DNA of 64,000 bases. Origin: a bacterium (GTDB lineage Bacteria > Actinomycetota > Acidimicrobiia > Spongiisociales > ZC4RG35). The first letter of the stretch is position 1. Every line of letters starts with the position of its first letter. This document shows, one piece after another, positions 13,058-17,414 of this stretch. The DNA is taken from positions 1 to 64,000 of the forward strand of contig JAPPFC010000044.1 of NCBI GenBank assembly GCA_028824015.1, given 5' to 3'. A program made the position numbers and the translations under genes. A model generated the notes under the pieces. The model saw only the letters and a program-made list of their open reading frames with translations, ran no database searches and had not been told where the DNA came from.

Positions 13058-13606
13058 TCAGTCGGGTATCCAGTTCTCCAACTCGAGGCCCAGACCGTCG
13101 GCGATCCGGTTGGCGTAGGCATAGTATCCGACCACTTCGACTATGTCGAGAATGTCACGATCGGAGAATCCGGCAGTGCGCAGGGCCTCCACGTCGGCGT
13201 CGCTCACGGCGCTGGGCGTGGCGGTCAGCTTGACCGCGAATTCCAGCATCGCCACCCGCTTGGGCGACAGCGCCGCAGTCGTCCAATCCCGCTCTATCGC
13301 CTCGGCGAGATCGTCGTCCCTGAGCAGCCGGCGCAGACCGCGCCGGTGATGGACCACTCAGTAGTGGCAGTCGTTGTGGAGGCTCACCACCAGGGCGATG
13401 ATCTCCCGCTCCACCTTGCGAAGCGTCGCCGTGCCGGCCATGGCCGACTCGTACAGCCCCTGGTGAGCCGCCATGCCCCGCGGATTCAGAGAGTGCACGG
13501 CCAGGATGTTGTCGACCCGGCCATGCACGGGGTCCACAACCCGCGGGTAAAGCTCCCCTAGGGCGCTGTCCCAATCGTCGTCGGGAATGACCTTGATGCG
13601 CGCCAT
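13058..13606 (-). CDS. AhpD/CMD-family peroxidase-related protein, probable selenoprotein (TGA read as Sec)
   Basis: Two abutting frames, 13358-13606 and 13058-13357, form one 182-residue carboxymuconolactone-decarboxylase/AhpD-like protein if the in-frame TGA at 13358-13360 is decoded. The TGA falls exactly where the family has the second Cys of its CxxC (C80-H-Y-U83, then VVHH). The remaining AhpD proton-relay positions are intact: Glu68 is 12 residues before C80, and His87 is four after U83. Downstream sequence (SPKRVAMLEFAVKLTATP, GFSDRDILDIVEVVGYYAYANRIADGLG) is fully conserved, so this is not a decayed gene. A bacterial SECIS-like hairpin begins 12 nt after the TGA. Expected activity is thiol-dependent peroxide reduction. 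Alternative: a plain nonsense mutation. Confidence 0.78.
13328..13346 (-). promoter_or_regulatory. Candidate bacterial SECIS element
   Basis: On the mRNA (minus strand) the sequence starting 12 nt after the UGA folds as CCGGCGC-GGUCU-GCGCCGG. That is seven uninterrupted G-C pairs around a five-base loop. The loop bases GGUCU are the same as in the E. coli fdhF SECIS apical loop recognised by SelB, and the loop lies 19-23 nt after the UGA, inside the usual bacterial spacing window. The hairpin is also coding (residues HRRGLRRL), as bacterial SECIS elements are. Confidence 0.75.
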
Positions 13607-13699: not shown

Positions 13700-13721
13700 G
13701 GGGGGCTGTAGCATCTACCCG

Positions 13722-14294
13722 GTGACCGAGAGTGCCCCCGGAACGAACAGCAGTTCGGCGGAAGCCGTGTTCGAAGCCATGCGTCTCCGCCGGATGCACC
13801 GCGTCTTCACTCCCGAGCTTCCCAGCGCCGATGTTCTCGATCGACTTGTCTACGCGGCCGGCCGCGCCCAGGTGGCCCGCCCGGGCATCCGGCACCTGAT
13901 CGTGGTCACCGACCCGCGCCTGGTGCGCACCGTGCGGCATGCCTGCCCCGGGTTCGTGAACAACGCGCCCGCCATCATCGTCATCTGCAGCGACCTCCAA
14001 AAGGCCCACGAAGTCATGGGGCCCCGGGGAGTCGAGGTGGTCACCCGGCTCGACGCCGGCGCCGCGGCCGGATACATCACCATCGCCGCCCCCGCGCTGG
14101 GGATCGGGGTATGCAAGGTCACGAGTTGGACGGAGGAGGTGGTCCAGGCCATCTTCGGCCTCCCCGACCACATACGCCCGGAAGTCCTGATGGCGATCGG
14201 GATACCCGTGGCGAACCACCCCAAGGCGGTCAAGGGCTTCCAGCCGGCCGTCCACCACGACCTCTACGGCCAAGATGGGAGCGACACACGGTGA
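13722..14294 (+). CDS. Nitroreductase-family protein
   Basis: About 190 residues from the GTG at 13722 (ATG at 13779 is the alternative). The MRLRRMHRVF N-terminal block, the LDRLVYAAGRAQ segment, HLIVVTDPRL and GYITIAAPALGIGVCKVTSW, and the C-terminal RPEVLMAIGIPV are typical of FMN-dependent nitroreductase-fold proteins. It overlaps the next gene by 4 bp (GTGA). It is divergent from the AhpD-like gene with a palindrome between, suggesting both answer to the same redox signal. Substrate unknown. Confidence 0.8.
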   Translation: MTESAPGTNSSSAEAVFEAMRLRRMHRVFTPELPSADVLDRLVYAAGRAQVARPGIRHLIVVTDPRLVRTVRHACPGFVNNAPAIIVICSDLQKAHEVMGPRGVEVVTRLDAGAAAGYITIAAPALGIGVCKVTSWTEEVVQAIFGLPDHIRPEVLMAIGIPVANHPKAVKGFQPAVHHDLYGQDGSDTR

Positions 14295-14681: not shown

Positions 14682-17414
14682 TCAGGAGCAGAACTCCAAG
14701 CCGAGATCATCCAGATCATCAACCGCGGTCTCGAGCCACCGCCATTCGGCCGGCAGACATCCACTCAACTGGTTGTCATCCAAGAGCAGGTAGGCGAGGT
14801 TGGCTAGTTCGCCGAGTTCGGCCGGAATCTCCCCGGAGAGGCGATTGCCGCCGAGGTTCAACTCCACCAGCGCCACCAGCATGCCCAGCTCGGCCGGAAT
14901 CTCCCCCGAGAGGCTGTTACTGCCCAACGTCAGATGTCTCAAACCGGTCAGTTCTCCCAACTCCTTGGGTATCGAGCCCCACAGCCCGTTGTACTGAAGG
15001 TTCAGGGTCTCCAGGTTGGCGAGGCCGCCCAGTTGGTAGGGAATCTCCCTGGATAGGCGGTTGCCGCTCAGATCCAGGAGCTTGAGATTGGTGAGCCCCC
15101 CGAACTCAATGGGTATGTGTTCGGTCAACTGGTTGTCCCGCAGGTTCAGGTGTTCCAGGGAAGCCAGGGCGCCGATGTCCCGGGGAATCTCGCCCCACAG
15201 CCAGTTTCTGCTGAGATCCAGATGGACCAGCCGGAGAAGTCTTCCCAACCGGGCCGGTATCTCACCGGACAGGTCGTTGCTCCCCAGATGCAGTTCGTTC
15301 AGGTTCTCCAGATTGCCCAGTTCCGCCGGGATCTCCCCCCAAAGCTTGTTGTGCTCCAGGTTGAGAGAGGCAAGTCTCCCCAGGTCTCCCAGTTCCGCCG
15401 GGATCTCCCCCCACAGAGTGTTATGGTTGAGCCGCATTTCGGTCACCTCGGTGAGATTTCCCAGCTCAGTGGGGATCTCCCCGATCAGGTCGTTGTGCTC
15501 CAGACCCAGTTCGGTCAGGTTCACCAACCGGCCAAGTTCCGCCGGAATCCCTCCCGACAGTTGGTTGTGTCCCAGCCGAAGACGGACCAACCCGGTCAGT
15601 CTTCCCAGCCCGCCCGGCACCGGACCAGACAATGCGTTGCGATCAAGGGTGAGAATCGTCAGGTTGGCGAGGTTGGCAAGCGAAACCGGAATGGGACCCG
15701 AGAGTCGGTTGTCGTGCAAAACAAGGCGTTGCAAGTTGGGCAGGTCTCCCAGCCAGGATCCGAGCCGGCCGGACAACCGGTTGTCCTGGAGCACCAACTC
15801 CTCGAGGTTGACGAGACCGGCAAGCTCGGCGGGTATCTCACCCGACAGGTCGTTTGCATCCAGGTGCAACTGCCGAAGATTGGTCAGTCTCCCGAGTTCC
15901 GGCGGGATCTCTCCCGTCAGACGGTTGTTCCACAGGTTCAGCCTCTCCAGAGCCCTCAGGTTGCCCAGCGTTGCTGGGATCTCCCCGGAGAATCGATTGG
16001 ACCGAAGGTACAACTGGGTGAGATTGGGGAGATTGCCAAGCCAGGCAGGAATCTCCCCCGACAACTCGTTCCGTCCCAGCCACAGCCGGGAGAGTTTGGA
16101 GAGAAAGGCGAGTTCGGACGGGATCTCCCCCGAGAGTCGGTTGTTGTGCAGGTACAGGCGCTCGAGTTCGGTGAGATTGCCAAGTTGGGCGGGAATAGAT
16201 CCCGACAACTGGTTGCCCTGTAGCCACAACTCTCTCAGATCGGTGAGGTTGCCAAGCTCGGACGGGATCTCCCCCGACAGGTTGTTGGAGTCCATGTCTA
16301 GCCGCCGGAGGTTGGTCAGAGAACCCAGTTCAGTGGGAATCTCACCAGAAAGGCGGTTGTTCCACAGATTCATGATGCGTAGGTTGCCGAGTCTGCCCAA
16401 CTCCGCCGGGATCGATCCCGAAAGCCGGTTCACCCGCAGGTTCAGGATCTGCAGGTTGGAAAGCCCGCCCAATTCGGGAGGGATGTCACCGAAGAGCTCG
16501 TTGAAGCTCAGATAGAGCACCGTCAGGTCATCCAGCCTTCCCAGTTCCGGCGGGATGTCTCCCGTCAACCGGTTGTAGCTGAGATCGAGCCATTGCAGGT
16601 CCGCCAACTCCCCCAGCCAGGCGGGGATCAGCCCACCGATCGAGTTGTCCCGCAGCACCAGATGGGTCAGCCGGCTCAGGCTGCGCCACCCGTTTGGAAT
16701 CTCACTCGAGAGGTCGTTGTCGCGAGCATCCAGCACCGTCAGGTTGCCAAGCGCTCCGAACACGGCCGGAAGCGGCCCGGTGAATCGGTTCGAATCGAGC
16801 TTCAGTTCCCGTAACTCTGCCAGGTTGCCGATTTGCCAGGGAAGTTCGCCCGTCAGGTGATTTCGGCCCAGGTTCAACACCTGAAGTCCGGATAGATTCC
16901 CGATCTCCACCGGCAATTCTCCCGACAGATAGTTGCCGCTCAGGTCTAATTCTCGCAATTCGACCAGGTTCCCGATCTCCGGGGGAAGCTCTCCAGACAG
17001 GTGGTTGCCCGCCAGCCACAGTGCGGTGACCTGTCCGTCGCCGTCGGTCGTAACACCCTCCCACTCACCGAGGGGGACATCCTCCAGCCAGTTCATGGAC
17101 CTCCTCCACCGCTCCCCGTCTGTGGCCTGGTACAGAGCCACCAGGGCCCGGCGGTCACTTGCCTCATCGGCAAGGGCGGTAGGCACTCCCGACCCTTGCC
17201 CGGTCCAGACCGGACCGACCGTGGCCGACACCGCCAACCACAGCACCAGTGCCGTCCTCGCGATCGTCGGGAAACGAAAGCCGTTGTGGGACCCCTGCAA
17301 GCCGCGAGAGTTTATGAGCGGGAATGCCGGTTTGACCGATACAAGACGGCTCGAACCGGCCAGTGTTCTTGGAAGGGAATACATCCCGCCGACACTACCG
17401 GTGGCCCCGGGCAT
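14682..17414 (-). CDS. Secreted protein with 32 tandem plant-type leucine-rich repeats
   Basis: A 910-residue protein. A hydrophobic signal-like segment (ALVLWLAVSATVGPVW) is followed by an LRR N-terminal cap (RRALVALYQATDGERW, then W-x-GV). From about residue 120 to 890 there are 32 uninterrupted 24-residue units of the form LxxLxLxxNxLSGEIPxELGxL, the plant-specific/SDS22-like consensus of receptor kinases. The last unit contains CLP and the chain ends in Cys-Ser, a possible disulfide cap. No membrane anchor follows. The first Met at 17414 leaves a long pre-signal stretch; Met at 17384 is an alternative. Likely extracellular binding or adhesion. Confidence 0.85.
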   Translation of the reverse strand: MPGATGSVGGMYSLPRTLAGSSRLVSVKPAFPLINSRGLQGSHNGFRFPTIARTALVLWLAVSATVGPVWTGQGSGVPTALADEASDRRALVALYQATDGERWRRSMNWLEDVPLGEWEGVTTDGDGQVTALWLAGNHLSGELPPEIGNLVELRELDLSGNYLSGELPVEIGNLSGLQVLNLGRNHLTGELPWQIGNLAELRELKLDSNRFTGPLPAVFGALGNLTVLDARDNDLSSEIPNGWRSLSRLTHLVLRDNSIGGLIPAWLGELADLQWLDLSYNRLTGDIPPELGRLDDLTVLYLSFNELFGDIPPELGGLSNLQILNLRVNRLSGSIPAELGRLGNLRIMNLWNNRLSGEIPTELGSLTNLRRLDMDSNNLSGEIPSELGNLTDLRELWLQGNQLSGSIPAQLGNLTELERLYLHNNRLSGEIPSELAFLSKLSRLWLGRNELSGEIPAWLGNLPNLTQLYLRSNRFSGEIPATLGNLRALERLNLWNNRLTGEIPPELGRLTNLRQLHLDANDLSGEIPAELAGLVNLEELVLQDNRLSGRLGSWLGDLPNLQRLVLHDNRLSGPIPVSLANLANLTILTLDRNALSGPVPGGLGRLTGLVRLRLGHNQLSGGIPAELGRLVNLTELGLEHNDLIGEIPTELGNLTEVTEMRLNHNTLWGEIPAELGDLGRLASLNLEHNKLWGEIPAELGNLENLNELHLGSNDLSGEIPARLGRLLRLVHLDLSRNWLWGEIPRDIGALASLEHLNLRDNQLTEHIPIEFGGLTNLKLLDLSGNRLSREIPYQLGGLANLETLNLQYNGLWGSIPKELGELTGLRHLTLGSNSLSGEIPAELGMLVALVELNLGGNRLSGEIPAELGELANLAYLLLDDNQLSGCLPAEWRWLETAVDDLDDLGLEFCS

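Follow-up and report, generated by a model that had tools for sequence, protein, structure and literature searches.

Does an in-frame TGA within a gene for an AhpD-like protein mark a broken reading frame, or is it decoded as selenocysteine (Sec)? The question is raised by a locus on the minus strand of a 64,000-nt stretch of bacterial DNA (the window), for which an initial annotation, made from the sequence alone, had proposed a peroxidase of the AhpD/CMD family with Sec in place of the second Cys of its catalytic CxxC. We consider the gene to be, very probably, a TIGR01926 AhpD-like selenoprotein gene in which a hairpin directs Sec to codon 83, and in which the chemistry would be that of an AhpD-type selenolate, by analogy. 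The computational support comprises conservation of the UGA, the presence of the Sec machinery, a conserved hairpin and the predicted fold; the actual insertion of Sec, the peroxidase-type chemistry, the substrate and the reductant are inferred.

Gene, Reading Frame and Family

Translated from 13606 to 13058 (MARIKV...SLHNDCHY*VVHHRRGLRRLL...ELENWIPD), the gene has a single internal TGA, which is followed by 99 open codons and then by the terminal TGA (Table 1). Codons 80-83 read C-H-Y-U, and so confirm that the in-frame TGA stands exactly at the second Cys of the CxxC. When the TGA is read as a residue, the protein matches the model TIGR01926 ("peroxidase-related enzyme") with 142.4 bits against a cut-off of 81.8, and it is also matched by PF02627 (CMD/AhpD). 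The assignment to the AhpD/CMD family is upheld by these two models; the function implied by the name "peroxidase" is putative, being drawn from the family.

Table 1. Features of the AhpD-like gene, in window coordinates.
Feature	Position	Strand	Basis or remark
AhpD-like selenoprotein gene (predicted), TIGR01926 peroxidase-related, CMD fold	13606..13058	minus	182 aa including Sec83
Glu68, relay residue, -12 from Cys80	13403..13405	minus	Invariant; Glu118 of M. tuberculosis AhpD
Cys80 at the first CxxU position, resolving residue by analogy	13367..13369	minus	Invariant, 48 homologues
Tyr82, relay residue	13361..13363	minus	Invariant; corresponds to Tyr50 of PA0269
UGA codon 83, second position of CxxU, predicted to be read as selenocysteine	13360-13358	minus	TGA kept at this column in orthologues
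His87, relay residue, +4 from Sec83	13346..13348	minus	Invariant; His137 of M. tuberculosis AhpD
SECIS hairpin CCGGCGC-GGUCU-GCGCCGG, 7 bp	13346..13328	minus	Pairing and covariation
Apical loop GGUCU	13335..13339	minus	Offset from UGA as in E. coli fdhF
True terminator TGA of the AhpD-like gene	13058..13060	minus	Orthologous similarity stops there

A nitroreductase-family gene (13701-14294, plus strand) is divergent from the selenoprotein gene, in a neighbourhood common to the closest relatives only, and farther along lies a gene (14682-17414, minus strand) for a 910-aa protein that consists almost entirely of leucine-rich repeats. No gene neighbour is conserved outside the genus; the flanking genes are common only to two loci (L049 and L053), which probably belong to the same genus because they are ~91% identical.

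Conservation of the UGA Codon

We assembled orthologues by searching 198 related genomes in six frames and by scanning a further collection of genomes, in which the named relatives include Acidimicrobiia, Acidimicrobiaceae and Microthrixaceae MAGs; for this reason the lineage is described here as Acidimicrobiia-like. TGA occupies codon 83 in 65 orthologous loci (59 distinct), which are 54-99% identical to the query, and only one orthologue has a different codon, TTA. Ten more distant homologues have TGC or TGT at this column, so that the contrast between U and C forms for which the initial annotation had suggested looking does hold. AhpD-like proteins of a second Sec clade (10 loci, L068-L077; 38-42% identity to the query) likewise have TGA at this column; they, too, are found within the same class, in small genomes of 1 Mb. 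The second clade is a single well-supported group in the tree, and the main Sec group is separate from it, with the TTA row as its sole exception. Six Cys rows form a group of their own, and the position of a single long-branch Cys row (L078) is uncertain. By these alignments, the UGA is conserved across a whole bacterial order (actinobacterial, Acidimicrobiia-like).

Two individual loci deserve mention. The orthologue with TTA (Leu) at the Sec position (L032; G121:C116:218-763, minus strand) retains the hairpin and the remaining frame, and its genome, which is 79% complete, has a tRNA-Sec, with SelA and SelB not detected; the substitution is either a recent loss of Sec or an error. The other (L063) comes from a record titled Armatimonadetes bacterium, in which the sequence around the UGA is identical to that of a member of the order (L042), and this record looks mis-assigned or contaminated.

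Pairwise values of dN downstream of the TGA are ~0.05-0.25 as against dS values of 0.3-1.2, and those upstream are similar. The frame and the family similarity do run for 99 codons past the TGA, as had been claimed, with purifying selection acting there, and none of the close relatives carries disabling mutations alongside the TGA. A nonsense mutation or sequencing error, leaving a pseudogene or a protein cut short at 82 aa, is highly improbable. In its favour, the standard code makes TGA a stop, and gene-finding software would report two ORFs, of 82 aa and 99 aa. Against it, the codon is common to 65 loci across the order, the downstream part is under purifying selection and a hairpin covaries behind it; TGA conservation together with dN/dS far below 1 on both sides excludes a pseudogene or base-call error.

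The SECIS Hairpin

The hairpin covers nucleotides 12-30 downstream of the UGA. The 7-bp hairpin with an fdhF-type GGUCU loop that had been described from the sequence is thus present, with its loop at the same offset as in fdhF, and it covaries. Comparison with E. coli genomes places the start of GGTCTGC 18 nt after the TGA in both fdhF and the present gene. The SECIS stem of E. coli fdhF carries a bulged U, which has no counterpart in the present hairpin, and the lower-stem sequences are unrelated.

Across 55 distinct sequences, 91.9% of the cells are paired. Four of the seven pairs vary on both sides, and the covariation score was reached by none of 500 shuffles, while sliding the hairpin partners abolishes it. 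The covariation occurs mostly at synonymous positions. Its main compensatory exchange, from G-C to C-G, lies between the wobble positions of two Arg codons and is silent in the protein; CGG CGC GGT CTG CGC CGG alternates with CGC CGC GGT CTG CGG CGG. The outermost pair is weak (unpaired in 24 of the 55 sequences), and the conserved core is therefore one of 6 bp.

The loop 7-mer GGUCUGC is nearly invariant among orthologues, and 58 of 59 sequences use GGT for the Gly of the loop, compared with 79 of 450 Gly codons (18%) elsewhere in the same genes. On the question posed in the initial annotation, the GGUCU loop is restricted to U forms, in that the ten Cys homologues have no such loop at that offset. 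For the second Sec clade, GGTC-type loops follow the TGA in several members, approximately 7 nt farther from the UGA.

The folding energy of the region relative to shuffled sequences is unexceptional for GC-rich DNA (z = -0.45), and hence the case for a SECIS element rests on comparison, that is, on the conserved TGA, the invariant loop codons and the covariation. The proposal that the hairpin is more than a chance structure is accordingly sustained by the comparative data, and not by the folding energy by itself.

Selenocysteine Machinery

The rest of the genome was searched with family models for selA, selB, selC and selD, as had been proposed, and all four are present. The selC product is a tRNA-Sec with anticodon TCA (79.5 bits), SelB is matched with 287.8 bits, and selA lies immediately upstream of selB on the same strand. 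SelD (381.6 bits; L065, G000:C16:13691-14608) has an in-frame TGA in the motif HGAGUGCK (HGAG-U-GCK), and is thus itself a Sec form; a GGTC-containing hairpin lies downstream of the selD TGA. Across genomes, SelB and UGA-containing AhpD are associated (53/59 versus 80/122, Fisher p = 5e-4), an association that lends weak support because SelB is widespread in the order and the genomes, besides being incomplete, share ancestry. Neither SelB, SelA nor a clear tRNA-Sec was found in three genomes (G032, G062 and G120) that contain the UGA form and are 56-75% complete; G032 and G120 have SelB-like matches below the cut-off.

Reassignment of UGA throughout the genome to another residue (e.g., Trp or Gly), with no selenocysteine involved, would also leave the frame open when TGA is read as sense. 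We find it scarcely credible: the gene itself ends in TGA, and UGA is therefore not sense throughout the genome; in the homologues read, a catalytic Cys is aligned with the residue, and in no case Trp or Gly; and all four sel genes are present. Considering the conserved TGA and frame, the TGA terminator, the Cys alignment and the Sec machinery together, we reject both the pseudogene and the altered genetic code. By these computations, Sec is almost certainly inserted at codon 83.

Active Site, Fold and Proposed Mechanism

In the AhpD reaction, the activated nucleophile is the second Cys of the CxxC, and Sec at this position (Sec83) should therefore raise reactivity. The relay set E68, C80, Y82, U83 and H87 is complete, and its four residues other than U83 are invariant in 48 aligned homologues. 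The Glu and His that had been pointed out at -12 and +4 (E68 and H87) are intact, and Y82 is added to them, as the fifth relay residue of the PA0269 structure. A relay of five such residues is known from both M. tuberculosis AhpD and PA0269 (PMC3141380).

The AlphaFold2 model of the protein (pLDDT 96.3, pTM 0.91) has the all-helical AhpD fold, and its best PDB matches are 2pfx, 2prr, 3c1l and 6k40 (TM ~0.84-0.89). The Cys-form structures of TIGR01926 type, i.e., 3C1L (Mlr4105), 2PFX, 2OYO, 2PRR and 6K40, have the same fold and the same E...CxxC...H site, but have Cys where the present protein has Sec.

In the mechanism that we propose, SelB with Sec-tRNA(Sec) would recognise the GGUCU hairpin and Sec would be inserted at codon 83, giving an active site of the form E68...C80-H-Y82-U83...H87. 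Extrapolating from AhpD, we would expect the Glu/His relay to activate U83 and its selenolate to attack a peroxide or another electrophilic or disulfide substrate. C80 would then resolve U83 by forming a selenenylsulfide, to be reduced by a thiol donor of the cell.

The protein might instead be a selenoprotein that is not a peroxidase, using the same AhpD-like site for reductive dehalogenation or to serve as a thiol-disulfide adaptor, and we regard this as possible, if rather unlikely. The debrominase Bmp8 was also returned by the fold search (6ohi and 6ohj, TM ~0.8; a C82A variant is deposited), and the shared fold makes a role in dehalogenation or thiol-disulfide exchange possible. AhpD itself combines an adaptor role with peroxidase activity, and PA0269 reduces H2O2 only weakly (PMC3141380). 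Moreover, the search of the 95%-complete genome gave no match to PF10417, the C-terminal domain of typical 2-Cys AhpC, which leaves a classical AhpC/AhpD pair putative. On the other hand, the sequence is far closer to the peroxidase-related TIGR01926 structures (28-34% in structural alignments) than to Bmp8 (17-18%). A more specific suggestion, namely that Sec is fixed here so fully that no Cys orthologue was found, because the real reaction (e.g., reductive dehalogenation or some other selenolate-dependent reduction) is poorly done by Cys, is in our view quite improbable.

Relation to Known Selenoproteins

A TIGR01926 selenoprotein has precedents. A Sargasso Sea metagenome study gives 27 AhpD-like CxxU selenoproteins, a family known since 2005 (PMC1088965); the GOS study counts 299 members of AhpD-like 1 (PMC2398784); and a 2026 review lists an "AhpD-like protein, TIGR01926, CxxU" (PMC13188914), for which the reference sequence is MCB9421940.1. 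AhpD-like 1 (TIGR01926/COG2128) has the same family model, a CxxU with Sec in the second position and a SECIS just downstream. It was described from metagenomes, whereas the present examples come from genomes of one actinobacterial order, have Sec nearly always and have the loop in an fdhF-like register. NF041238 (AhpD_rel_CFYUT, alkylhydroperoxidase-related (seleno)protein) likewise combines an AhpD domain with CxxU, but the present protein, at 40.7 bits, falls below the cut-off of 175 and is not a member.

The gene belongs to the known TIGR01926 CxxU selenoprotein family and does not define a new class. Of the initial annotation, the selenoprotein reading is therefore retained and the suggested novelty is scaled down, the family being already tabulated (PMC13188914). 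The AhpD-like passages of the three sources (PMC1088965, PMC2398784 and PMC13188914) do not name the lineage, and a partial literature search by title and abstract gave no earlier mention of its selenoproteins. Within the literature searched, we also found no account of order-wide, almost Cys-free conservation or of a separate second clade of Sec paralogues.

The ORF is of the kind that automatic annotation cuts in two or labels a pseudogene. With the UGA and the hairpin conserved throughout the order, it provides approximately 60 naturally occurring variants of a SECIS for an actinobacterial SelB, and the Sec-specific clade offers a clean setting in which to ask why Cys has not been retained.
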